DNA from: Planctomycetes bacterium UBA2386
GTDB taxonomy: Bacteria; Planctomycetota; UBA1135; UBA2386
Direction of reading: 5' to 3'
Assembly: GCA_002343845.1 (NCBI GenBank)
Contig: DDSQ01000179.1
Coordinates: forward strand, 1-19,177
Length of the DNA stretch: 19,177 bases
The notes under the pieces were generated by a model. The model did no database searches. It had not been told where the DNA came from and saw only the letters and a list, made by a program, of their open reading frames with translations. Positions 7,279-19,177 of this stretch are shown here, piece by piece (position 1 is the first letter of the stretch; every line of letters begins with the position of its first letter). A program made the translations under genes and the position numbers.

Positions 7279-8157
7279 TCACCGTTCGAATGGCGGCTCG
7301 CTGGATCGTGCGGGCGATTCCGTCGTGCGGTTCGCTGCGTCGCTCGCGGGAAGCGCCGAGCCGCAATGCGGGCACTTCACCGCGTGTGGTCGGGCGGCGC
7401 CCATGCCATCGCCCGTTCGCGCCTTGCCGAGTTCGTCGACGAAGGCCGCGCCGAGCAGGCCCGCCGGCAGCGCGAACATGCCGATGCCGAGTACGGCGAT
7501 CACGCCGCCGAGCGCGCGGCCCGCGTCGGTCGCCGGCGCCAGATCGCCGTAGCCGATCGTGGTCAAGGTGACGATGCCCCACCACATCGTCGCCGGGATG
7601 CTCGAGAATCTCTGCGGCTGCGCTTCGTGCTCGAGGTGGTACATCGCGGTCGACGAGAGCACCAGCAGCACGACCAGCACGAAGAGCAGCGACAGCAGGT
7701 CGGGCGCCTTGGCTCGCAGAACGCGCTGCAGTGTCTGCACGGCCAGCGAGTAGCGGCCGAGCTTGCCGATGCGGAGCAGCCGCGACAGGCGCACGAGGCG
7801 CAGCGCGCGCAGGTCGGCGCCGAGGAACACCAGCAGGCTCGGCAGCACCGCGAACAGGTCGATCAGGGCCGCGGGGGTCAGCGCCCAGCGCAGCCGGCCG
7901 GCGATCGGCGCGCGGAAGCGTTCTTGTTCGGGGGCGACCCACAGCCGCGCCAGGTACTCGACGCCGAAGACGGCGAGCGAGACGGCTTCGAGGATCGCGA
8001 ACACGTCGTGCCAGCGAGGGCCGAGCGTCGGCACGGTCTCGAGCGCGATGGTGGCGACGTTGAGGACGATCAGCAAGCCAAGGGCGAACCGCACGAGCAT
8101 CGCAGCGCGCGCGTGGTCGTCCTCGAGCAGCCGGTGCACGGTCGATCGCAGGGTCAC
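7279..8157 (-). CDS. Voltage-gated potassium channel, six-helix (Kv/VIC type)
   Basis: A 292-residue inner-membrane ion channel. Helix S1 is at about 20-42, S2 at about 52-73 (ending EYLARLW), S3 carries LIDLFAVLP (98-106), and S4 (116-136) has the spaced arginines LRALRLVRLSRLLRIGKLGR of a voltage sensor. The pore follows with the selectivity filter T-I-G-Y-G-D at residues 200-205, diagnostic of potassium channels, and S6 carries FALPAGLLGAAF. A short cytoplasmic tail contains one CPHCG knuckle (262-266) but no second cysteine pair, so any zinc ribbon would need another subunit. The start is GTG 8157, with a TAAGCT box ending 6 bases upstream and no Shine-Dalgarno site. It is divergent from the thioredoxin-fold selenoprotein gene. 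Confidence 0.92.
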   Translation of the reverse strand: MTLRSTVHRLLEDDHARAAMLVRFALGLLIVLNVATIALETVPTLGPRWHDVFAILEAVSLAVFGVEYLARLWVAPEQERFRAPIAGRLRWALTPAALIDLFAVLPSLLVFLGADLRALRLVRLSRLLRIGKLGRYSLAVQTLQRVLRAKAPDLLSLLFVLVVLLVLSSTAMYHLEHEAQPQRFSSIPATMWWGIVTLTTIGYGDLAPATDAGRALGGVIAVLGIGMFALPAGLLGAAFVDELGKARTGDGMGAARPHAVKCPHCGSALPASDAANRTTESPARSSEPPFER

Positions 8158-8163
8158 GCGAGG

Positions 8164-8169
8164 AGCTTA
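8164..8169 (-). promoter_or_regulatory. Possible -10 box, TAAGCT
   Basis: TAAGCT on the minus strand ends 6 bases before the GTG of the channel gene, so transcription would begin at about the start codon. The same bases contain the in-frame TAG (8168-8170) that closes the selenoprotein frame on the plus strand. No -35 is apparent. Confidence 0.3.
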
Positions 8170-8218
8170 GGCCCACGAGGCTGTTCGCCGCAGGCTCGAG
8201 AAGAGCGGCAACCCCGAC

Positions 8219-8824
8219 GTGAAGGCCGCCGCGCTGCTCGCGCGCCACGCCGACACGATCGAGAAGGCTCCGCTCGACGGCGACGCCTACAAGGCGGCGA
8301 AGAGCGACCTGCTCGCGGCGGCGGGTGCTGCGAAGGACAAGCGCCTGAAGGGCGAGATCCAGGGCGCGATCGACACCCGCGAGAAGTTCGGCGTCGGCAA
8401 CGTGGCGCCCGACATCGAGGGCGTGGACCTCGACGGGGTGTCGTTCAAGCTGTCCGACTACAAGGGCAAGGTCATCTTCCTCGACTTCTGGGGCGACTGG
8501 TGAGGCCCTTGCCGGGCCATGTACCCGCACGAGCGGTCGCTCGTGGAAGAGATGAAGGACAAGCCGTTCGCCTTGATCGGAGTGAACTCCGACAAGGAAG
8601 TCGCGCGCGCCAAGAAGGCGATCGCCGACAACCAGCTCAACTGGCGCAGCTTCCACTGCGGGCCCGAGGGCACGCGTGGACCGATCCCGACCGCGTGGGC
8701 GGTGAAGGGTTGGCCGACCATCGTCGTGCTCGACGCCGAGATGAAGATCCACTACCGCGGCCACAGCGGTGACGAGGCGACGCAGATCGCCAAGGGACTC
8801 GTCGCGAAGATGCAGGGCGGCTGA
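8219..8824 (+). CDS. Predicted selenoprotein, TlpA/thioredoxin-fold, UxxC active site (in-frame TGA 8501-8503)
   Basis: Read through one in-frame TGA, this is a 201-residue thiol-disulfide oxidoreductase. Residues about 58-94 (VGNVAPDIEGVDLDG, then GKVIFLDFWGDW) are the first half of a TlpA/AhpC-TSA-type thioredoxin fold. Residue 95 is TGA, then G-P-C98-R. The second half has MYPHERSLVEE, LIGVNSDK (119-126) and the cis-proline motif GWPT (164-167). Relatives read DFWG-WCGPCRAMYPHE, so TGA replaces the first, nucleophilic cysteine. A SECIS-like hairpin lies 24 bases downstream. The only ordinary start is GTG 8219, which leaves no signal peptide although relatives are usually exported; coherent sequence continues upstream to a TAG at 8168. 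A TGC-to-TGA mutation is the alternative reading. Confidence 0.8.
8528..8545 (+). promoter_or_regulatory. Candidate bacterial SECIS element
   Basis: A perfect 7-bp stem, CACGAGC with GCTCGTG, closes the 4-base loop GGTC. The loop begins 31 bases after the TGA, inside the 16-37 base range described for bacterial SECIS elements, and GGUC is also present in the apical loop of the E. coli fdhF SECIS. A smaller 5-bp hairpin (GGCCC/GGGCC, 8504-8518) starts immediately after the TGA, so the whole 8501-8545 stretch is structured. Binding by SelB is inferred; the hairpin also encodes the conserved HERSLV residues. Confidence 0.65.
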
Positions 8825-8864: not shown

Positions 8865-8870
8865 TAGAGT
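8865..8870 (+). promoter_or_regulatory. Possible -10 box, TAGAGT
   Basis: TAGAGT follows directly on the hairpin and overlaps GTG 8869. If it is a real -10 box, transcription would start near 8877 and translation would begin at the in-frame GTG 8890 rather than 8869. The context GCTAGAGTGC resembles GCTAGTCTGC before the lipoprotein gene. Confidence 0.3.
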
Positions 8871-10368
8871 GCGCGCCCCTCGTCGTCCCGTGCGCACTCC
8901 CCACGTCGTCGTCGTTCTGTCGGCCCTCGTCGTCGCGCTGCCCGCGCAAGGCAGGTCCAAGGAACTCGACCGCGCGCGCGACCTGCTCGAACAGCGGGGC
9001 GAGCAGCAGGTGCAGGAAGGCACCGCCGTGTGCGTGAAGGCCAACGACGTGCCGGCCGTCGAGCTGCTGCTCGAGACGCTGGCGACGAAGGAGCGGCGCT
9101 CGCGCCTGCACCTGTCGCCCGGCCACTACCGCGACATCGTCTGGGACGGCCTGCTGAAGATCACCGACGTCTACGCCCGCCGGCGCGTCGAACTCGAACT
9201 GCGCACCGGCCGCGATCCCGACGTGCGGTCGTGGTGCGCGGAGCTGCTCGGCATCTACGGCGACGCCGGCTACGGCGAGACCCTGCGCAAGGCGCTGTCG
9301 GCGAAGGACGAGGACGTCGTGCGCCAGGCGGCGCGTTCGCTCGGCATGTTGCGCGATGCCGCGGCGGCGCCGCAGTTGGCGGCGCTGAGCAAGCACGCCG
9401 ACGACTACGTGCGCGGCAACGCGATCGAAGCGCTGGCGCGGTGCGATGGCGCGCAACTCGCGACGTTCCGCGCGGCCATCGTGCAGGACAAGTCGGGCGG
9501 CGTTCGTTGTGCGCTGCTCGGTGCGGCTCCGGACCTGGTCGGCGACGACCTCGAGGCCGTGTGCACGGCGGCCCTGCGCGACCCCGACTGGCGCCCGCGC
9601 ATGCAGGCGGTGAAGAACCTCGGCCGGTTGCGCAGCAAGACCGCGGTCGACGCCCTGATCACGGCCTTGCGCGACGGCCGGCCGGTGGTCGCGGTGCGCG
9701 CGCAGCGCGAACTGCAGGAACTGACCGGCCAGCCGATCACGCAGATCGAGGTCTGGGAGAAGTGGTGGGCCGACCACCGCGCGGCGTTCGCGTTCCCCGA
9801 GGGGCGCGGCGTCGCCAAGCGCGACGTCGGCACGGTCGTCTACAACGGCGTGCCGGTCGACAGCGACCACGTCGCGTTCCTGCTCGACAAGTCGGTGCAG
9901 ATGCAGGCGCGGCTGCAGTCGAAGGGCACGAGCAAGGACGAGGCGGCGCTGGCGGAGCTGGCGCAGGTCCTCGGCAAGCTCGACGACAAGATCGCCTGCA
10001 ACGTGTTCGCCTACGACACCGAGGTGCGCGCGTTCGAGAAGAAGGCCGTCAAGCTGACCGCCGCGAGCCGCAAGCGCGCGCTGGCGTTCGCGACCGAGAA
10101 GCCGGTCGGCAAGGAGAAGGACATCTGGCAGGCGCTGGTCGCCGTGGTCGCCGATCCCACGCTCGACACCGCCTACCTGCTGTCGTCGGGCGAGCCGGAC
10201 ACCGGTCGCTACGTGCACTGGAACCGCGTCACGCGGCACCTCGCCGACCTGAACCGCTTCCATCAGGTCACCGTGCACGCCGTCGCCTACACCGACAACG
10301 AGTGGTTCCGCGACCAGATCCAGAAGATCGCCGAGGTGACCGGCGGTCACTTCGAGTGGTTCCGCTGA
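8869..10368 (+). CDS. Secreted HEAT-repeat protein with a VWA-like C-terminal domain
   Basis: A 499-residue exported protein. A signal peptide covers about the first 26 residues (hydrophobic core VVVVLSALVVALPA). Residues about 105-290 are helical HEAT/armadillo-like repeats, for example VVRQAARSLGMLRDAAAAPQ and PRMQAVKNLGRLRSKTAVDA. From about 335 the sequence resembles a von Willebrand A fold: a hydrophobic strand ends in LLDKSVQM, then CNVFAYDTEVRAF, and TAYLLSSGEPDTGR. The metal-site motif D-x-S-x-S is only partly kept (D-K-S-V-Q), so metal binding is doubtful. Start GTG 8869 has a GGGGGAG upstream, but it is buried in a hairpin; GTG 8890 is in frame and still gives a full signal peptide. 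It precedes the S46 peptidase gene by 107 bases. The function is unknown, probably protein binding in the envelope. Confidence 0.8.
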   Translation: MRAPRRPVRTPHVVVVLSALVVALPAQGRSKELDRARDLLEQRGEQQVQEGTAVCVKANDVPAVELLLETLATKERRSRLHLSPGHYRDIVWDGLLKITDVYARRRVELELRTGRDPDVRSWCAELLGIYGDAGYGETLRKALSAKDEDVVRQAARSLGMLRDAAAAPQLAALSKHADDYVRGNAIEALARCDGAQLATFRAAIVQDKSGGVRCALLGAAPDLVGDDLEAVCTAALRDPDWRPRMQAVKNLGRLRSKTAVDALITALRDGRPVVAVRAQRELQELTGQPITQIEVWEKWWADHRAAFAFPEGRGVAKRDVGTVVYNGVPVDSDHVAFLLDKSVQMQARLQSKGTSKDEAALAELAQVLGKLDDKIACNVFAYDTEVRAFEKKAVKLTAASRKRALAFATEKPVGKEKDIWQALVAVVADPTLDTAYLLSSGEPDTGRYVHWNRVTRHLADLNRFHQVTVHAVAYTDNEWFRDQIQKIAEVTGGHFEWFR

Positions 10369-10423
10369 CCCCGGCATCGGGCACGGCGAGCGGCTCGGGC
10401 GTGGTCTCGGCGCGAAGGATCCC

Positions 10424-10429
10424 TATCAT
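10424..10429 (+). promoter_or_regulatory. Possible -10 box, TATCAT
   Basis: TATCAT matches the TATAAT consensus at five of six bases and lies 46 bases before the ATG of the S46 peptidase gene, in the 107-base gap after the HEAT gene. No good -35 is visible. It would give the peptidase gene its own promoter. Confidence 0.35.
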
Positions 10430-10475
10430 CCCCGCCCCCGTGCGCCGCCCTGGCGACGGTTCCCCGAGGCACTGC

Positions 10476-12140
10476 ATGCATCCGACTCCGCTCGTTCCGT
10501 TCGCCGTCGCCCTGCTGGCGCTCGGCGCCACGTTCCCGACTTCGATGGCCCGCCCCGACGAGGGCATGTGGCCGTTCGACGGCCTGCCGCTGCAGGTGTT
10601 GAAGGAGAAGTACCAGTTCGAACCGACCGCCGAGTGGCTCGACCACGTGCGGCTGGGCTCGGTGCGTTTCGACACCGGCGGCTCGGGTTCGTTCGTGTCG
10701 CCGAACGGCCTGGTGATGACGAACCACCACGTCGCCTTGACCACGATCCAGGCGATCTCGACGCCGGAGAAGGACTGGGTCGAGCCCGGCTTCTCGGCGA
10801 AGAAGTACGGCAAGGAAGTGCCGGGGAAGGGTCTGACGCTGCGCCAGCTCGTCGAGGTCCGCGACGTGACCCAGGAGATCCTCGCGGTGAAGGCCAAGGA
10901 CGACGCGGCGGGCAACGCCTGGCGCGCCAAGCTCGAGGAGATGTGCGCTGCGATCACCGACGAGAAGAAGCACGTCAAGGCCGATCCCGTCACCCTCTAC
11001 GACGGCAACCAGTTCCGCATCTACGTCTACCACGTCTACGACGACGTGCGGCTCGTCTTCGCGCCGGAGAAGCAGGTCGCGTTCTACGGCGGTGACTTGG
11101 ACAACTTCACCTACCCGCGCTACTGCCTCGACTGCGCGTTCTTCCGCGTCTACGAGGACGGCAAGCCGATCGACTCGAGCAAGTTCTACTTCCAGTGGGA
11201 CGGCGATGGCGCCAAGGCCGACGAGCTGGTGTTCGTGTCCGGCCATCCGGGCGGCACCGAGCGGGCGCTGACGCACGCCGAGATGGAGTTCCACCGCGAC
11301 TTCCGCGTGCCGATGCAGGTCGACCGCTTGCGCCAGATGCTCGACATGACGAAGAAGCAGATGGAGTCGAGCGAGAAGGCCGCGTTCGATCTGCGCGACC
11401 AGTACTTCGGCATCAGCAACTCGCTGAAGGCCTACGAGGGGCACCTCGCCGGCCTGCGCGACGGCGCGATGATGGCGAAGATGAAGCAGCGCGACGAGGA
11501 GCTGATCGCGCGCTCGGGCAAGCCCGAGGTCAAGGCGGCGTTCGATTCGATCGCCACGGCCTACGCCGACTACCGCAAGGCGATCGAGGACAAGGCGCCG
11601 CAGTCCGAGCGCCAGAAGGTGCGGCAGAAGATCGATCGCGAGATCGCGCCGCCGGCCAAGGCCGCCATCAACCAGGCGCGCTTCGATGTCTACGGCGCCT
11701 CGAACTACCCCGACGCCACGTTCACGCTGCGGCTCGCCTTCGGCACCGTGAAGGGCTACGAGGCCGGCACGACGCTGGTGCCGCCGAAGACGACGATCAA
11801 CGGCCTGTTCGAGCGCAACGCGGCGTTCGACAACGCGCCGCCGTTCGATCTGCCGAAGCAGTGGACGGACAAGAAGGGCAAGCTGAAGCTCGACACGCCG
11901 TTCAACTTCGTCTGCACGGCCGACATCATCGGCGGCAACTCGGGCAGCCCGATCCTCGATCGCGACGCCAAGGTCGTCGGCCTCGTGTTCGACGGCAACA
12001 TCGAGTCGCTGCCGAGCAACTACTGGTACGACGAGCGGGTCAACCGCTGTGTCGGCGTGCACACCGCGGTCATGACCGAGGCGATGACGGTGATCTACGA
12101 GGAGCACGACCTCGTCAAGGAACTGACCGGCGGCAAGTAG
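10476..12140 (+). CDS. S46-family dipeptidyl-peptidase-like serine peptidase
   Basis: A 554-residue exported serine peptidase. Residues 1-25 form a signal peptide ending in PTSMA, before the MWPFDGLP motif typical of S46 mature enzymes (DPP7, DPP11, DAP BII). The catalytic histidine is in TNHHV (82-86, likely H85), the aspartate in YGGDLDNFTYPR (204-215), and the nucleophile is S489 in GGNSGSP. Characterised S46 enzymes remove dipeptides from peptide N-termini; known ones are about 700 residues, so this member has a shorter helical domain. Position 507 in VFDGN is glycine, which aligns with Gly673 of DPP7 rather than the arginine of DPP11, suggesting non-acidic P1 preference (inference). The ATG has GAGG 7 bases upstream. 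A hairpin spans the stop codon. Confidence 0.88.
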   Translation: MHPTPLVPFAVALLALGATFPTSMARPDEGMWPFDGLPLQVLKEKYQFEPTAEWLDHVRLGSVRFDTGGSGSFVSPNGLVMTNHHVALTTIQAISTPEKDWVEPGFSAKKYGKEVPGKGLTLRQLVEVRDVTQEILAVKAKDDAAGNAWRAKLEEMCAAITDEKKHVKADPVTLYDGNQFRIYVYHVYDDVRLVFAPEKQVAFYGGDLDNFTYPRYCLDCAFFRVYEDGKPIDSSKFYFQWDGDGAKADELVFVSGHPGGTERALTHAEMEFHRDFRVPMQVDRLRQMLDMTKKQMESSEKAAFDLRDQYFGISNSLKAYEGHLAGLRDGAMMAKMKQRDEELIARSGKPEVKAAFDSIATAYADYRKAIEDKAPQSERQKVRQKIDREIAPPAKAAINQARFDVYGASNYPDATFTLRLAFGTVKGYEAGTTLVPPKTTINGLFERNAAFDNAPPFDLPKQWTDKKGKLKLDTPFNFVCTADIIGGNSGSPILDRDAKVVGLVFDGNIESLPSNYWYDERVNRCVGVHTAVMTEAMTVIYEEHDLVKELTGGK

Positions 12141-12154: not shown

Positions 12155-12508
12155 TCAGCGCTCGAGCACGTCGTCGACCCAGCGCATCGCCGCCATCGTG
12201 CTCGGGAAGCCGAGCGTCGTCGTCGCCATCACGACGACGTGCCGGATCGCCTCGCGCGAACAGCCGGCCGCCAACGCGCGGCCGGCGGCGCTGTGCACCG
12301 CTCCCTCGCGCCAGGCGCCGACGGCGAGCGCCAGCTTGACCAGTGCGCGCGTGGTCGCATCGAGCGGGCCGGCGGCCTGCGTGGCCGTGCCGAGCGCTTC
12401 GTAGGCGGCGGCCACTTCGGGGTAATCGGCGGCGAAGCGCTGGAAGTGCGACTTGCGGGGACCGCCGGCGGAACGCTTCGGCGGACGCGACGATCGACGG
12501 GCTGTCAT
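12155..12508 (-). CDS. CMD/AhpD-fold protein lacking the CxxC pair
   Basis: A 117-residue protein of the carboxymuconolactone decarboxylase family, an all-helical fold that includes the AhpD alkylhydroperoxidase partner. Residues about 50-110 carry the family core: TRALVKLALAVGAW, then REGAVHSAAGRALAAGCSRE and VVVMATTTLGFP. In AhpD-type members a C-x-x-C sits before the conserved histidine; here that region reads R-E-G-A-V-H-S with no cysteine, as in the GAVHS subgroup common in environmental bacteria and archaea. Redox activity through a disulfide is therefore unlikely. The N-terminus is basic (RRSSRPPKR). Its ATG overlaps the stop of the upstream TPR gene (ATGA), implying translational coupling. 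The function of this subgroup is not known to me. Confidence 0.8.
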   Translation of the reverse strand: MTARRSSRPPKRSAGGPRKSHFQRFAADYPEVAAAYEALGTATQAAGPLDATTRALVKLALAVGAWREGAVHSAAGRALAAGCSREAIRHVVVMATTTLGFPSTMAAMRWVDDVLER

Positions 12509-13662
12509 TTGGGTGCTCGTGGCTTGCCGAAGTACTGTTCGTAGAGGGGCGCGAACCGCGGGTCCTTGCGCAGGGAATCGATGTCGTGGTCGGTGTCGAC
12601 CAGCGCCTTGCCCAGCGGTTGGCCGGCCTTCTTGCCGGCGGCGAGCGCCTTCTCGAGGTAGGCGAAGGCCTCGTCGATCTGCCCGGCGAGGGCGAGGTTG
12701 CAGGCCGTGTTGTAGACGGTCGTCGGGAAGCCCGACGGCAGCTCGGGCTGCGCCTCGAGTCGCTGCACGGCGGTCTTGTAGTGCGCGGCGGCCTCGGCGT
12801 GGAGACGGGCTGCGTAGAACAGGTTCGCCAGCGTGTCGATGATCGGCAGTTGGCGTTCGGGGCCCGCGTCGGCGAGCTGCTGCTCGAGTCTGCCCCGGAT
12901 CTCGTCGAACGCGGCGGCGTCGCCGTACTCGCGCAGGGCGCAGATCGCGTTCATGAACAGGTCCTGGTTGCGTCCGGACTGCGCCATGCCGGCGATCTCC
13001 TTCAGGTTGGCGCGCACGAGGTCCGTCGCGTGCTCTGGCGCCAACGCGTCGCGCAGCGCGCGTACGCACGCGGTGCGGAAGGCGTCGGGGTTGGTGACTT
13101 CGCGCGGCGCCTCCTTGGCCCAGCGCAACAACAGGTCGTTGCCGTCCGGGTGGAAGTCGCGCAGCTCGCGGTACTGACCCGCGAAGATCGCGTTCGTGTC
13201 GATCTTGCGGCGCACGATCGCCGTGACGGTGCGTTCGAGGATCTTCCGGCCGCGTTCGTCGAGCTGCTGCAGCGCCAGCGTGCCCGCGGTCTTGTCGGCG
13301 GCGAGCGCTTCGATCGCGGCCTTCTGTTGGGCAGCGTCGGCGGCGACCGCGGTGTTCATGTGTTGGCGGATCTCCGCGGCGAACTCGGGGGGCTTGGGCG
13401 GCGTCCCGGCGCTCGGAGTCGGCGCTGCGGACGGTGGCGCCACGGCGGCGATCGCCCGCAGCGTGCCGACGAACCACGCGCGTCCCGCAGCGTCGGCGGC
13501 GATCACCTTGTCGGCGGCGGCCATGATGACGAGCTTGCGTCCGCCGTCGGCATCGACGAACGCCTTGCGCAGTTCTTCGCCCGCGGGCCCCGCGGTCTGG
13601 GCGAACAGCCACGGCGCCAGCAGCAGCAGCGGACACGAACGCACGAGCAGTGGGTGCAGCAT
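12505..13662 (-). CDS. Secreted TPR-type protein
   Basis: A 385-residue exported helical protein. The signal peptide is about residues 1-22 (MLHPLLVRSC then PLLLLAPWLFAQ). An Ala/Pro-rich linker near residues 75-90 precedes a long helical region. The end has clear tetratricopeptide character: YNTACNLALAGQIDEAFAYL, followed by DHDIDSLRKDPRFAPLYEQY, a common closing motif of TPR proteins in which a final repeat reports 'first D-L-x-x-L-R-x-D-P-R-F'. The ATG at 13662 has a GAGGT Shine-Dalgarno 5 bases upstream, which decides against the longer frame reaching 13728. It overlaps the CMD gene by 4 bases. It probably acts outside the cytoplasm as a scaffold; no catalytic motif is visible. Confidence 0.8.
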   Translation of the reverse strand: MLHPLLVRSCPLLLLAPWLFAQTAGPAGEELRKAFVDADGGRKLVIMAAADKVIAADAAGRAWFVGTLRAIAAVAPPSAAPTPSAGTPPKPPEFAAEIRQHMNTAVAADAAQQKAAIEALAADKTAGTLALQQLDERGRKILERTVTAIVRRKIDTNAIFAGQYRELRDFHPDGNDLLLRWAKEAPREVTNPDAFRTACVRALRDALAPEHATDLVRANLKEIAGMAQSGRNQDLFMNAICALREYGDAAAFDEIRGRLEQQLADAGPERQLPIIDTLANLFYAARLHAEAAAHYKTAVQRLEAQPELPSGFPTTVYNTACNLALAGQIDEAFAYLEKALAAGKKAGQPLGKALVDTDHDIDSLRKDPRFAPLYEQYFGKPRAPK

Positions 13663-13746
13663 GGCAACCTCGCGGGCGCCGGACCGGCGCGACTGCGGAT
13701 CTGAGCGTGCCGCCGGCGACTGCGCCAAGTCCCCGCCGCGGAATAT

Positions 13747-13778
13747 GCCGTTCGCTGACGACTGCCCGGGCGTTCGGC
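13747..13778 (-). terminator. Imperfect hairpin after pyrC
   Basis: GCCGTTCGC and GCGTTCGGC can form a stem of 4 and 3 bp separated by two T-T mismatches, 2 bases beyond the pyrC stop; on the minus strand it is followed by CATATTCC. The gap before the TPR gene is 117 bases and this is the only hairpin noticed in it. Weak evidence. Confidence 0.25.
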
Positions 13779-13779
13779 G

Positions 13780-14814
13780 TCAGCCGGTGACCAGCCGCCA
13801 GCCCACCGTCTCGCCGGCGCGCATCGGCACCAGCGCCTCGCCGCCGAACGGCAGTTCGGCCGGCACGGTCCAGCTGGCGCGCTCGAGCGTGATGCGATCG
13901 TGGTTGCGCGGCAGCCGGTAGAAGTCCGGTCCGCGCCAGCTCGCGAACGCCTCGAGCCGATCGAGCGCGCCGGCCTGCTCGAACGCCTCGGCGTAGAGCT
14001 CGATGCCGGCGTGCGCGGTGTAGATGCCGGCACAGCCGCAGTCGTGCTCCTTGCGCGAACGCGCGTGCGGCGCGCTGTCGGTGCCCAGGAAGAAGCGCGC
14101 ATCGTCGCCGGTCGCCGCGGCGACGAGCGCCTCGCGATGGCGTTCGCGCTTGAGCACCGGCAGGCAGTACGCGTGCGGCCGGATGCCGCCGGCGAACAGC
14201 GCGTTGCGGTTCCACAGCAGGTGGTGCGCGGTGATCGTCGCCGCGAGGTTGGGCCCGCCGGCGCGCACGCAATCGACGGCGTCCTTCGTCGTCGCGTGCT
14301 CGAGCACGATGCGCAGGCCGGGGAACGAGCGCTGCAGCGGCGGCAGCGCACGGTCGAGGAACACACGCTCGCGATCGAACACGTCGACCGCCGGATCGGT
14401 CACCTCGCCGTGCAGCAGCAGCGGCACGTCGTGCCGTTCCATCGCCGCGAGCACGCGCTGCACATGGCGCCAGTCGGTGACGCCGTTCTCGGAGTTGGTC
14501 GTGGCTCCAGCCGGGTAGTACTTCACCGCGTGCACGAACCCGCTCGCCTTCGCCGGACCGATCTCGGCGGGATCGGTGCGGTCGGTGAGGTAGAGCGTCA
14601 TCAGCGGCGCGAACGACGAGCCCGCGGGCAGTGCAGCGAGGATGCGTTGCCGGTAGGCGGCGGCGTCGGCCACGGTCGTCACCGGCGGCTTCAAGTTCGG
14701 CATCACGATCGCGCGGCCAAACCGCCGCGCAGTGTCCGGCAGCACGGCCGCCATGGCCGCGCCGTCGCGCAGGTGCAGGTGCCAGTCGTCGGGGCGCGTG
14801 ATCGTGAGGCGCAT
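13780..14814 (-). CDS. pyrC: Dihydroorotase (E. coli PyrC type)
   Basis: A 344-residue zinc amidohydrolase that interconverts N-carbamoyl-L-aspartate and dihydroorotate, the third step of pyrimidine synthesis in the cytoplasm. The length and order of motifs match E. coli PyrC (348 residues). Metal ligands are visible: H12 and H14 in [10 protein letters not shown], the carbamylated lysine K98 in [15 protein letters not shown]135 in [10 protein letters not shown]173 in LEHATTKDA, and D246 in FLGTDSAPH. The substrate segments [10 protein letters not shown] and [12 protein letters not shown] are also present. The frame is open to 14850, but homology begins at ATG 14814 ([11 protein letters not shown]), with GAGGA 9 bases upstream. 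No other pyrimidine gene is nearby. It is divergent from the lipoprotein gene. Confidence 0.96.
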
Positions 14815-14914
14815 CGCGCGGGATCCTCGCGGGGCGCGCGCGAAGCGCAAGCACGCGCCTCGCGGCGGGTGTCCGGACGGCGCACGCTGCCGTGCACCTT
14901 CCGGACGTCGGGGC

Positions 14915-14920
14915 TAGTCT
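14915..14920 (+). promoter_or_regulatory. Possible -10 box, TAGTCT
   Basis: TAGTCT in the context GGGCTAGTCTGC lies 36 bases before ATG 14957, in the 142-base gap between divergent pyrC and the lipoprotein gene. It resembles the GCTAGAGTGC sequence before the HEAT gene. No -35 was recognised. Confidence 0.3.
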
Positions 14921-14956
14921 GCTGGACCGGCACGCTCGTTGTGCTGCGTAGAGCCC

Positions 14957-16339
14957 ATGACCATGAAGAACCTCCTCCTCTTCGCCTCCCTGGCGCTCTG
15001 GTCGGCTGCGGCGTGCAGCGGTTCGGGCAGCGGGTCGGAAACCACGACCACCGGCGCGGTGCACGTCGTCATCGACACCGCGACCGGCGCCGACGGCCTG
15101 GTGCAGTTCCAGGTGACGGGCGCGGTGCTTGGCGATGGCACGGGCGCCGTCACCGGCAACCTGCTCGCCGCGGCCGAAGTGGTGACGTTCGCCGATCCGA
15201 GTGGCGAGGCCTCCGCACTCGAGCTGCGGGCGGTGCCGACCGGCAATTACGCGACGCTGCACCTCGTGCTGGTGCCGGGCAGCGGGCAGGTGCTGCGCGC
15301 CGACGGTTCGGTGACGGCGATCGCGGGGCCGGTCGACCTCGCGATCCCGATCGCCGACGGTCTGCAGCACGACAACGCGACCAACACCTGGCTCGCGGTC
15401 GGCCACGGGCTTGGCAACGCGATCACCGACACCGGCAGCGGTCTCGTCTGGTCGCCGGCGCTGACCGGGAGGTTCGACGGCAGCGAACACGAACTCGGCG
15501 ACCTGGCGCCGGTCCTCGTCGACGGCGAAACGGTCGTCGCGCGCGATCCGGCGAACGGCGGTTTGCTGCGCGTCGAGTTCGCCCCGGACTGCGCCTTCAC
15601 CGCCGAGGACGACGGCCGCAGCGCCGAGTCGCGCGGTGAGTTCCTGCAGCGCGTGCGGGAAGCGGGCGAACTGCGCGTGCGCGGCGACCTGCATCGCGAC
15701 GGCCGGCTGCTCGCGCGCGACGCGCGACGCGGCCGCGGCCACGACGGCGTGCGCTTCCTCGGCCGCATCGTCACCCTCGAACCCGCGACCGAGAGCTTCG
15801 TCTTCCGCGTGCAGGCCGAGACCCGGCGCGGCGGCGAGCGTCGCATCCTCACGCCGCCGCGCGACGTGCGCGTGCTCACGCAGAACGCCGTCATCCGGCG
15901 CCCGGCCGCGCAGTTCGTGCTGACGTTCGCCGACCTCGCCGTCGGCAACCTCGCGAAGGTCAAGCCGTTCACCGTGACGGCGGTGCCGGGCGGTCTGACC
16001 GAGATCGGCGCCCGCGAGATCGAGGTGACGTCGGGCGACGGCGTGCCGCCGCAGCCCGAGTGGCAGGGCCGCGTCACCGGCGTCGACCTCGTGCTGAAGG
16101 AGATCACCGTCGAGCCGCGCAACGACGATCCGATCGTGATCGGCGGCGTCTCGGTGCCCGTCGCGACCGTTCGCGTCGATGCGCAGACCTGGCTCGAACG
16201 CCGTGAGCGGCAGGGACCCGGGCGCTTCGTGATCGAACTCGGCGACATCGTGCCGGGACAGGACCGCATCTGGTGGCGCGGCTCGGTGGTCGGCCCGGCC
16301 ACCGTGTTGGCCCGGTGGGTGCGCGTGCGCGAGGATTGA
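14957..16339 (+). CDS. Probable lipoprotein with DUF4382/DUF5666-like domains
   Basis: A 460-residue envelope protein. The start MTMKNLLLFASLALWSAAAC is a short basic, hydrophobic leader ending in a cysteine followed by a Ser/Gly linker, which suits a lipoprotein, although the lipobox (A-A-A-C) is weak. Residues about 30-150 are a beta domain resembling DUF4382. From about 225 onward come repeated small beta units of the DUF5666 kind, such as RFLGRIVTLEPATESFVFRV and WQGRVTGVDLVLKEITVEPR, each followed by a segment of the type 'V-V-D-A-x-T' and 'F-x-D-L-x-V-G'. ATG 14957 or 14963 are both plausible; GTAGAG at 14948 favours 14963, and the longer TTG 14939 is unlikely. The stop overlaps the kinase start. 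The function is unknown. Confidence 0.72.
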   Translation: MTMKNLLLFASLALWSAAACSGSGSGSETTTTGAVHVVIDTATGADGLVQFQVTGAVLGDGTGAVTGNLLAAAEVVTFADPSGEASALELRAVPTGNYATLHLVLVPGSGQVLRADGSVTAIAGPVDLAIPIADGLQHDNATNTWLAVGHGLGNAITDTGSGLVWSPALTGRFDGSEHELGDLAPVLVDGETVVARDPANGGLLRVEFAPDCAFTAEDDGRSAESRGEFLQRVREAGELRVRGDLHRDGRLLARDARRGRGHDGVRFLGRIVTLEPATESFVFRVQAETRRGGERRILTPPRDVRVLTQNAVIRRPAAQFVLTFADLAVGNLAKVKPFTVTAVPGGLTEIGAREIEVTSGDGVPPQPEWQGRVTGVDLVLKEITVEPRNDDPIVIGGVSVPVATVRVDAQTWLERRERQGPGRFVIELGDIVPGQDRIWWRGSVVGPATVLARWVRVRED

Positions 16340-19177
16340 GCGACGCCGAGCATCTGCCGGCGGCGCTGCGCGCGCGCTTTCGCCTGCTCCGGCGCTACGC
16401 CGGCGGCGAGGGACTCACCATGGCCGTGCTGCCGCGCGATGGCGGCGGTGCGCAGCTCCTGAAGGTGCTGCCGGCGGGGGTCGAGCCCGCCGAAGCGTCC
16501 CTGCTGCTGTCGCTGCGGCATCCGGCGATCCCGGCGGTGCACGAAGTGGGCCGGCTGCCCGACGGGCGCGCCTTCGTGCTGCGCGAACACGTCGAGGGCG
16601 AAGTCCTGCGCACGCTGCCGCGCGAACCCGGCGCGTTGCGCGAGTCGCTGCAGGAACTGCTCGAGGTGCTCGCCTACGTGCACTTGCGCGGCGTCGCGCA
16701 CCTCGACCTGAAGCCGGGGAACTTGCTGCGCGGCAGCGACGGCCGCCTGCGCCTGCTCGACTTCGGCCTCGGCGCGCGGTCCGGTCAGGCGGGGCGCGGC
16801 GGCACGCCGTTCTTCGCGGCGCCCGAGCAGTGGCTCGGACTCGCTGCGGACGCCCGCGCCGACTTGTTCGCCGTCGGCGCGATGGTGGCACAGGCGCTGT
16901 GGCCGGGTGATGGCCCGGACGTCGCCCGGTTCGTCGCGGCATTCCCGGCGCAGGACTTCTTCGTCGCCGCCGGGCTCGATGCCCGTTCGCTGCCCGCACC
17001 GTTCGACCGTTTCGTCGCACGTTGCACGGCGAGGCAGCCGGCCGAACGGTTCGCCGATGCGCAGGCAGCGCTCGAGTTCCTCGGCGGCGGCAGCGGCCGG
17101 CCCTCGGCATCGTTGCTGCATCCCGATGCGGTGTTGCTGTGGTCGTCGGAGTTGGCGCGCGCTGTCGTCGCGGCCGGCAGCGTGGTCGTGCGGGGTGGCG
17201 CGCCCGCCGACCGGCGCGCGCTGGCGTTGCACCTCGTGGCCTCGCTGCCCGGCGTGCGGGCGGTGCGCGAGGACGCCGATGCCGTGCACGTGCTGCGCAA
17301 CAGCGGCGAAGCGGCGTTCGAACTCGACCTGCCGCCGCTCGACGCCGACCGCCTGCTGCCGCACCTCGACCGCGCGTTCGGTCTGAGTGGAGAGGCGGCG
17401 ACGAGCGCGGCGCGATGGCTCGCCCGACGAGGCGCCACCGGCACCGAGGCAGTGGCGCGGAGCCTGCTCGCGCTCGTCGATGCCGGGGAGATCGTGCCGT
17501 CGGGCATGCGCTGGACCTGGCCGGCCGCGCGCAGCGGGCGCCTGGCGGCGGCGGGCGACGCGATGCCGGCAGCGCCCGCGACCGTCGACGAACTGGGGCG
17601 TGCGGCCGCGAGCGGGCGGGCCGAGTTGGCCTTCGCGGGCTGGCGCCGCATCGCCGCCGAGCACCCCGCAGACGAACCTGCGGCGCGCGCCGCGCTCGTC
17701 GCGGGGTTGCTCGATGGTGGCGAGCCGGCGCGGGCGCTGCCGCTGTGCGCCGACCTTCCCGGCCTGCGGGCGCAGGCGCTGCTCGATACCGGTCGCATGG
17801 CCGAAGCCGCCGACGCCCTGGCGTCGATGCCGGACCCGACGGCGACGCCTCGCCTGCGCAGGACCGGCGCGCAGCTGGCGGCCGCGAGAGGCGACCTGGC
17901 GGCCGCGCTCGCCCAGCTGCACGACGACGGCGTCGACGTGCTCGAGTCGCTGACGCGCGCAGCCGTGCTCGAACAGGCGGGTCGCGCCGCCGACGCGCAC
18001 GCGGTGCTCGCCGCGGCCGCGCCGGTTCTCGCCCGCGGCGAGTTGCCGTTCGCCGAAGCGAGCGCCGCGACGGTGCATGGCCACCTCGCGCGCGCCGCCG
18101 GCGATCTGCAAGCGGCCCGCTCGCACTTCGAACATGCCGCCCGGACCTTGTTCGCCCTCGGCAACGTGCGCCATGCCGCCAGCGCGTTGCTCAACCTCGG
18201 CGTCGTCGCCAAGGACCTCGGCGAGCATGCGCTCGCGGTCGAGCGACTGCGCGAGGCGCGCACGCTCTACCAGCACGTCGGCGATGCCGTGCGGGCGGCG
18301 ATCGCGGCGGCGAATCTCGGCAGCGCCTCGCTGGCACGCAACGACGCGGCGGCCGCCCGGCAGTGGCTCGACGCGGCGGCGGCCGAACTCGCGCGTCTCG
18401 GCGAGCGACCGGCTGCCGCGCTCGCGACCGCGATGTTGGCGCGCGCTCATGCACAGCTCGGCGACGCGGACGCCGCGTCGGCAGCACTCGCGCGCGTCGG
18501 CGATGCGACGTCGGCTAGACTGCGCGACGAGGTCGCTCGCGTGCACGAGTTGTTGCGCGGGCCGCTCCCCGCAGCCCCGCCGCCGATGACCGAACGCCCG
18601 CCGAGCGGCCCGAGCCGCGAACTGTTCCGCACCTTCCTGGCGGTGAACCGCCAACTGGCGCAGGAGGTGGACCTCGACAAGGCGATGCGCCACTTGCTGG
18701 ACGCCGCGGTGACGCTGACCGCGGGGCGCATCGGCTATCTGCTCGTCGCGCACGACGACGGCATGCGCCGCGAGTTCCAGAGCGGCGATGCCGGGCCGAT
18801 CGGCCAGGCGTTCAGTCGTTCGTTGGCGCATCGCGCGATGCAATTGCAGCGCACGCTGACCGGCGCCGACGGGCTCGCCGACCGCGACCTGCAGGACATG
18901 CCGTCGATCCGCAACCTGCAGGTGCGATCCGCGATCTGCGCGCCGTTCCGCAGTGCCGGGGGCGTGGTCGGGGCGATCTATGTCGAGCATCCGGGACGTG
19001 CCGGTGCGTTCACGGATGTCGACAAAGAGGCGCTGGAAGTGCTCGCCGACCAGGCCGCGATCGCCGTCGATCGAATGCTGCGCGAGCAGGCGGTGCTGAA
19101 GGAGCTGACCGCGAGCCAGCGCGAACTCGCAGTGGCCAAACGCAGCTCGTCGCGGCGCGACGGCGGCCAGTTGCTCG
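16336..19177 (+). CDS. Ser/Thr-kinase-like, TPR and GAF sensor protein, 3' end outside window
   Basis: The frame is open from TTG 16336 to the window edge (947 residues) and is cut there. Residues about 15-235 are a protein-kinase-like domain: K43 in LLKVLP, catalytic loop HLDLKPGN (122-129), DFG at 142-144 and APE at 162-164. The glycine loop is poor and HRD reads HLD. Residues about 275-395 resemble a degenerate STAND/AAA module: VVVRGGAPADRRALA stands where a Walker A would be, with no GKT, then a winged-helix-like LLALVDAGEIVPSG. TPR-like helices fill about 400-745. A GAF domain covers about 761-915, then a coiled coil begins. Relatives of this layout often end in a sigma-54 activator or histidine kinase domain. 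TTG overlaps the lipoprotein stop; GTG 16315 is possible. Confidence 0.82.
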   Translation, partial: MSDAEHLPAALRARFRLLRRYAGGEGLTMAVLPRDGGGAQLLKVLPAGVEPAEASLLLSLRHPAIPAVHEVGRLPDGRAFVLREHVEGEVLRTLPREPGALRESLQELLEVLAYVHLRGVAHLDLKPGNLLRGSDGRLRLLDFGLGARSGQAGRGGTPFFAAPEQWLGLAADARADLFAVGAMVAQALWPGDGPDVARFVAAFPAQDFFVAAGLDARSLPAPFDRFVARCTARQPAERFADAQAALEFLGGGSGRPSASLLHPDAVLLWSSELARAVVAAGSVVVRGGAPADRRALALHLVASLPGVRAVREDADAVHVLRNSGEAAFELDLPPLDADRLLPHLDRAFGLSGEAATSAARWLARRGATGTEAVARSLLALVDAGEIVPSGMRWTWPAARSGRLAAAGDAMPAAPATVDELGRAAASGRAELAFAGWRRIAAEHPADEPAARAALVAGLLDGGEPARALPLCADLPGLRAQALLDTGRMAEAADALASMPDPTATPRLRRTGAQLAAARGDLAAALAQLHDDGVDVLESLTRAAVLEQAGRAADAHAVLAAAAPVLARGELPFAEASAATVHGHLARAAGDLQAARSHFEHAARTLFALGNVRHAASALLNLGVVAKDLGEHALAVERLREARTLYQHVGDAVRAAIAAANLGSASLARNDAAAARQWLDAAAAELARLGERPAAALATAMLARAHAQLGDADAASAALARVGDATSARLRDEVARVHELLRGPLPAAPPPMTERPPSGPSRELFRTFLAVNRQLAQEVDLDKAMRHLLDAAVTLTAGRIGYLLVAHDDGMRREFQSGDAGPIGQAFSRSLAHRAMQLQRTLTGADGLADRDLQDMPSIRNLQVRSAICAPFRSAGGVVGAIYVEHPGRAGAFTDVDKEALEVLADQAAIAVDRMLREQAVLKELTASQRELAVAKRSSSRRDGGQLL

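Follow-up and report, generated by a model that had tools for sequence, protein, structure and literature searches.

A TlpA-like selenoprotein family of Planctomycetota, represented by a 5′-truncated gene with an in-frame UGA

The window analysed here, a 19,177-nt stretch of DNA from Planctomycetes bacterium UBA2386, holds a thioredoxin-like coding frame in which an in-frame TGA stands where the first residue of the active site is expected. Does this codon specify selenocysteine (Sec), or does it mark a gene in decay? Comparison with relatives indicates that the TGA is genuine and that selenocysteine is, almost certainly, what it specifies. The gene belongs to a real selenoprotein family, here as a 5′-truncated copy, and we consider it very probable that positions 8192–8824 make up the 3′ portion of a selenoprotein gene whose UGA is recoded as Sec through a SECIS element and whose product carries out thiol-disulfide chemistry.

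A single TGA in a TlpA-like coding frame

Retranslation of the window recovered the following features of the initial annotation: one in-frame TGA at 8501–8503, flanked by GKVIFLDFWGDW on the 5′ side and GPCRAMYPHERSLVEE on the 3′ side, with the residues FLDFWGDW directly before it, VNSDK and GWPT encoded 3′ of it in the same frame, and an uninterrupted frame up to the gene's own stop, TGA 8822–8824. The remaining coding frame spans 8192–8824 (+ strand), as judged by homology to the protein P0004 from residue 163 of the latter (the R of RLEKS), and comprises the C-terminal part of a helical domain and a complete TlpA-like domain; the 5′ part is missing. The putative Sec codon is residue 95 of the frame that begins at 8219 and corresponds to residue 265 in L001, a full-length relative. 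It is followed by GGC CCT TGC (8504–8512, +), encoding G-P-C, whose Cys would be the resolving residue of UGPC, and by the cis-Pro motif GWPT (8708–8719, +; Pro codon 8714–8716, Pro336 in L001); both the Cys and the Pro are invariant in a 28-row alignment (A2). Across the TGA, the read-through product scored above the Pfam cut-offs for AhpC-TSA, Redoxin, Thioredoxin_8 and Thioredoxin. No Rfam family reached its gathering threshold over the window, and none reached E ≤ 1 over 8400–8700.

The TGA is shared by relatives

A scan of genome contigs with the read-through protein returned 14 loci, eight of which match most of the query at 58–80% identity (six of them from genomes named Planctomycetota or Phycisphaerales); the remaining six are distant partial matches. 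Because all eight close homologues carry TGA at the same codon, the in-frame TGA is more than chance. Seven of the eight are otherwise complete, and the other, L005, runs off its contig. When the search was extended to 294 genomes of the same phylum as G001, the read-through protein matched at E ≤ 1e-10 in 213; among the matches listed, the 78 strongest have exactly one in-frame TGA each, and TAA or TAG occurs within none.

We then counted the codons at the site itself. A pattern requiring W before the site and xPC after it found 56 TGA, 15 TGC and 4 TGT among the distinct sites of the fetched loci, a ratio of TGA to Cys (56:19) that is not a frequency, Cys loci having been deliberately sought out. 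The pattern missed the TGA sites L038, L121 and L122 and three further Cys sites (L099, L102 and L103; TGC or TGT). A later count that allowed any stop and excluded sites less than 60 bases from a contig start gave 62 sites, all TGA; with L038, where the TGA lies in a UAAC motif, L121 and L122, TGA accounts for 65/65 distinct stop-bearing sites in the fetched loci, with TAA or TAG at none. Two checks proposed at the outset thus came out in favour of Sec: Cys homologues align across the TGA, and other TGA-containing homologues are many. Together they support the reading of 8501–8503 (+) as a Sec codon at the first position of UGPC in a TlpA/thioredoxin domain.

Were the TGA a nonsense mutation, the window copy would simply be a pseudogene. 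This copy does lack about 600 bp including its start, so it may be non-functional as assembled. However, that loss, whether recent or an assembly error, leaves the TGA unexplained, the hairpin that follows the TGA is under synonymous constraint, and seven of the eight close homologues that share the codon are otherwise complete. We consider a nonsense mutation very improbable; a pseudogene call from the TGA alone was rejected, the codon being common to all eight.

The window copy lacks its 5′ part

Apart from the TGA, the initial annotation had seen no lesion in the gene. Here it erred: of some 370 codons, roughly the first 160 are missing from the window copy. Intact relatives have roughly 255–270 residues before Sec, opening with a stretch that resembles a signal peptide (judged by eye), and the window product aligns with P0004, a 265-residue fragment, only from residue 160 of P0004. 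The GTG at 8219 corresponds to an internal Val (NPDV) of the relatives; upstream of it, a TAG is reached after 16 codons with no intervening ATG, GTG or TTG. We place the junction at 8158–8191 (+). About 600 bp of the relatives' DNA (intergenic DNA, the signal peptide and the first ~160 codons) are absent there: the start of the neighbouring ion-channel gene lies 62 bp from 8219 in the window and 670 bp from the equivalent position in L001. DNA homology to L003 stops at 8163 and that to L001 restarts at 8201, and protein homology (P0004, P0060) is clear from 8192. Since the window frame beyond the junction is intact, this DNA was either deleted recently or lost through a fault in assembly.

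TlpA/ResA-like oxidoreductases are defined as exported by a signal peptide or an N-terminal anchor. The window copy has neither, its N-terminus being absent, and because the first ~160 codons are missing, the gene as assembled would yield either nothing or, at most, a protein that is not exported and has lost most of the helical domain.

The diverging ion-channel gene upstream (7279–8157, −; PF00520, PF07885) is also the upstream neighbour in L001–L003 but is missing from that position in L004–L008. Next downstream is a HEAT-repeat gene (8869–10368, +) with a weak, sub-cut-off VWA match; it has no match in the relatives' loci, in which a peptidase S46 gene lies closer to the selenoprotein. The window's own S46 gene follows, an open frame with an approximate start (10365–12140, +; PF10459, 512.8 bits). 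S46 is found downstream of the selenoprotein in L001, L002, L004–L007 and L032, with no match at L008 or at L003, whose contig stops shortly downstream of the selenoprotein. L001 and L002 preserve the gene order ion channel (−), selenoprotein (+), peptidase S46 (+); L004–L007 have S46 and no ion channel at that place, and L008 has neither. Two very long open frames of the window (12155–15742, −, and 15247–18990, −) run over or opposite other likely genes in GC-rich DNA and are probably spurious.

A probable SECIS hairpin follows the UGA

In the window, 31 nt after the UGA, the RNA can form the hairpin CACGAGC-GGUC-GCUCGUG (8528–8545, +), with a 7-bp stem, the apical loop GGUC at 8535–8538 and a folding energy of −10.5 kcal/mol. 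Loop, spacing and energy fall within the limits for bacterial SECIS elements given in a 2026 selenoprotein catalogue, that is, a loop of 3–9 nt with G in its first two positions, 16–37 nt after the UGA, and a minimum free energy ≤ −7.5 kcal/mol (PMC13188914). Folding of 65 nt there gave a modest z-score (−1.60).

In the relatives, we counted codons at the TGA sites with an ERS motif (48 of 56). Within the hairpin, Arg is CGG at 48/48, Ser TCG at 48/48 and Leu CTC at 47/47; CAC (45/45), GAG (47/48) and GTG (40/48) make up the rest. The CAC and GAG counts weigh little, because other two-fold degenerate columns reach 70–100%; in other four- and six-fold degenerate columns the commonest codon takes 40–78%, except for Arg at +4 (CGG, 39/43). 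Over 50 distinct rows, representing 54 of the 62 TGA sites, 98.3% of the stem is paired, the outermost pair being unpaired in six rows. Two-sided changes affected six stem cells, whereas shuffling gave 0.6 on average and none of 500 shuffles scored as high; counted as stem pairs with change on both sides, there were two, a number reached in 37 of the 500. Because degenerate codons are fixed in relatives and the stem has undergone compensatory changes, the hairpin at 8528–8545 is, on this comparative evidence, a bacterial SECIS.

One might argue that the hairpin is kept only for the HERSLV protein sequence that it encodes and that Sec insertion uses something else, given that H-E-R-S-L-V also appears in the Cys homologues P0001 and P0007 and that eight of the 62 TGA sites are without the hairpin sequence, having PHEKEMV, PHLKTLV and similar residues in its place. 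Selection on amino acids, however, cannot fix the six-synonym codons of Arg, Ser and Leu without exception, nor does it account for the compensatory stem changes. Four Cys homologues with Glu-Arg, a partial control that is not the full HERSLV, use three different Arg codons (CGC in L099, CGT in L102, CGG in L098 and CGT in L129). Constraint on the protein alone is therefore a very unlikely explanation, and we retain the SECIS reading.

The eight sites without the ERS motif (L058, L118, L119, L125, L126, L130, L131 and L132) stand outside the SECIS alignment. Folding of all but L119 gave no better result than shuffled sequence for L118 and slightly better for the other six, and at L056 the stem sequence is kept while the minimum-energy fold differs from the hairpin. 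L118, L125, L126 and L130–L132 are more distant TGA paralogues that lack the hairpin common to the other sites; their SECIS elements, if any, are of another form.

The core ACGARC-GGUC-GYUCGU matched exactly 91 times in 55 of the 294 genomes, compared with 13 times for the reversed control. Among the matches listed, 80 of the 91 lie at family places, and the 11 elsewhere are similar in number to the control's 13; no TGA was present 11–45 nt upstream of the off-family matches examined (8/11). As a finder of other kinds of selenoprotein the core was rejected, the eight off-family matches examined being without an upstream TGA and SelD having other sequences after its UGA. For the TlpA-like family, the near-fixed SECIS offers an easy means of searching.

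Database entries break the family at the UGA

The initial annotation had predicted that standard procedures would split such genes into fragments. The databases agree: at least 21 homologues end exactly at FWxxW, among 120 listed of 1082. Regular expressions divided these 120 into 21 N-terminal, 12 middle, 14 'C-terminal', 35 CxPC and 38 other entries. Only P0003, P0006 and P0113 of the 'C-terminal' class start right after the UGA, the other members being full-length variants such as CPDC, and the 12 middle pieces lie between two successive UGAs and resemble parts of the double-headed proteins described below. Genes of the family are thus stored as broken N-terminal, middle and C-terminal pieces.

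Both kinds of end piece are what one would find if the locus encoded two separate proteins, a helical N-terminal one ending at the UGA and a C-terminal one beginning at ATG 8519, and an N-terminal piece is also expected as a product when selenium is absent. Yet the C-terminal protein would be without its first strands and its active site, and ATG 8519 is replaced by CTG, CTC or TTG in L004, L008, L033 and L035. Two separate proteins are thus a highly improbable reading, and the data are better explained by one protein read through the UGA.

Relatives possess the Sec machinery

In the eight genomes behind L001–L008, tRNA-Sec, SelB and SelD scored over their cut-offs in 8/8 and SelA in 7/8; in G003, the remaining genome, SelA is present as a fragment that matches profile positions 277–454 and stops 4 bases short of a contig end. 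SelD itself has one TGA, in a GUAAK motif, in all eight (L153–L160), and the DNA after this UGA differs from the TlpA-family SECIS. SelD adjoins SelA in seven of the eight, and the two are on different contigs in G008.

Across the phylum, tRNA-Sec exceeded the family cut-off in 215 of 294 genomes. Matches were bimodally distributed, and we set a strong match at E ≤ 1e-11. Strong matches occurred in 57/65 genomes listed with TGA-bearing matches versus 122/229 others (Fisher p = 2.4e-7). The 65 include G227 and, among the 57, G140, both counted as TGA genomes because their listed match holds TGA; dropping these two, whose sites are TGC, gave 56/63 versus 123/231. Because strong tRNA-Sec is also present in 122 of the 229 other genomes, Sec is commonly used in the phylum outside the TlpA-like family too.

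Eight of the 65 TGA-listed genomes, of unstated completeness, have no strong tRNA-Sec; one of them is G227, with its TGC site. Among the other seven, SelA is over cut-off in four, and G158, G181 and G220 gave no SelA match. For ten genomes without strong tRNA-Sec whose listed matches are stop-free, SelA is over cut-off in one, G261, which has a Cys-type family member.

The frame would also run on if this lineage had reassigned TGA, for instance to Trp or Gly, or if ribosomes passed the codon without using selenium. This proposal has a negligible probability and was rejected, as TGA ends 9/11 window frames checked, the selenoprotein gene's own end included, the site aligns with Cys in homologues and not with Trp, and relatives have both the Sec machinery and a SECIS-like hairpin 3′ of the TGA.

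Structure and proposed mechanism

To view the intact protein, we turned to an AlphaFold2 model of L001, built from the 28-row alignment with Sec entered as Cys (pLDDT 93.3, pTM 0.82). It has helices at residues 34–227 followed by the TlpA-like domain, which contains Cys268 and Pro336 and in which residue 265 (Sec) immediately precedes the helix 266–269. The best Foldseek matches to the model were domains of the ResA/TlpA/DsbE type. Pfam and the model agree on a TlpA/ResA-type fold in which a helix begins at the active site and the cis-Pro position is conserved.

Fold and motif point to thiol-disulfide chemistry, and the family members are likely to be exported thiol-disulfide oxidoreductases that work through a selenenylsulfide; between the two directions, we lean towards reductase over oxidase. 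Judging from sequence conservation and the genomes of relatives, SelB and tRNA-Sec would recode UGA 8501–8503 as Sec, directed by the hairpin at 8528–8545. The product of the intact relatives, consisting of a signal peptide, an all-helical domain and a TlpA/ResA-type thioredoxin domain with UGPC, is probably exported. There, the Sec selenolate would attack a disulfide, or another oxidised thiol, of an extracytoplasmic partner; the Cys three residues on (Cys268 in L001) would resolve this intermediate as a selenenylsulfide, and a reductant would then reset the active site. The family suggests that selenium may serve extracytoplasmic thiol redox chemistry in many Planctomycetota.

Relation to known proteins

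The family shares its fold, active-site position and cis-Pro with proteins of the ResA/TlpA/DsbE type (PDB 4grf, 2lrn, 4nmu, 1st9 and 1jfu). The best sequence-profile match was 2lrn (the same sequence as 4grf; 1.4e-29), and among the matches listed the Foldseek TM-score by target length reached 0.88. Those proteins have CxxC where UxxC is found here, and the matches listed cover the TlpA-like domain only; one of them, 4yod, aligns over a longer stretch at an rmsd of 12.7 Å. Against the NCBIfam ResA model (PRK03147), the window protein scored 65.7 bits, below the 170-bit cut-off. The UGC-containing TlpA, or WAxxUGC ResA-like, protein (NF041054; PMC13188914, Table 1) also has Sec in a ResA-like domain; its motif is UGC, in contrast to UGPC here, and the window protein scored 35.5 against a cut-off of 300.

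The initial annotation had called the protein undescribed-looking. This does not hold for its kind and may hold at most for the subfamily, because UxxC thioredoxin-like selenoproteins are in print (PMC2398784, PMC13188914). The GOS selenoproteome reports Trx-like 1 (COG0526, UxxC, 321 sequences) and Prx-like 1 (pfam00578, UxxC, 225 sequences) and mentions fusions of Trx-fold selenoproteins with unknown domains (PMC2398784), and the 2026 catalogue lists a 'Thiol-disulfide isomerase-like protein' (cd02966, UxxC) and a 'Prx-like thiol:disulfide oxidoreductase' (PF00578, UxxC/UxxU) (PMC13188914). Both Trx-like and Prx-like selenoproteins with UxxC have thus been described, as have some with UxxU (PMC2398784, PMC1088965, PMC13188914); UxxU forms occur in Prx-like families. 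The present family shares with these the Trx fold, Sec as first residue of the active site and widespread Cys homologues. It differs from them, by the descriptions available in these sources, in its helical N-terminal domain, near-invariant SECIS cassette and double-headed TlpA forms, although membership may overlap. The string 'planctomycet' is absent from the main texts of PMC13188914, PMC2398784, PMC1088965, PMC5029168 and PMC12013277, and the literature searched yielded no helical-plus-TlpA subfamily with a near-invariant SECIS, paralogues, double-headed members and ULTU sites. For planctomycete isolates P1 and P2 from Porphyra, the available text describes Sec machinery and selenoproteins including fdhA and fmdB, and a TlpA-type entry is possible in its S9 Table (PMC4807772).

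Paralogues, double-headed proteins and two-Sec sites

We think it likely, with some reservation, that these proteins form a phylum-wide, so far unnamed subfamily of Planctomycetota, exported and composed of a helical and a TlpA domain with an active-site Sec, with paralogues, a SECIS cassette and double-headed forms. Active sites are mostly UGPC or UPPC, also UAAC, and ULTU in two genomes. Many genomes have several paralogues, most of which share the near-fixed cassette ACGARC-GGUC-GYUCGU. In a tree of 122 domains (148 columns) the window protein falls within an all-Sec clade of 23 (support 98/99); with many forks unresolved and an arbitrary root, well-supported branches imply at least five switches between Sec and Cys.

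Three genomes have double-headed genes, in which a single frame contains two UGPC/UPPC sites, at L133/L148 (G317), L134/L149 (G382) and L044/L076/L120 (G136), and SelA is over cut-off in all three. Each TlpA domain of these proteins carries a separate UGA, and the HERS hairpin comes after it in both cases. G317 and G382 share one architecture; G136, whose gene is open at the first base of the contig, has another. A second UGA also appears within single active sites: L121 (G117, near 1400) reads TGA CTC ACC TGA and L122 (G072, near 1085) TGA CTC ACG TGA, so that the two UGAs of ULTU are nine bases apart, at motif codons 1 and 4, and the same SECIS core follows. Double-headed proteins and ULTU sites offer ways to test what a second selenol adds. 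At L041 (G204), two adjacent family members (at 1645 and 2787), in different frames, are identical over 48 bases from the TGA.
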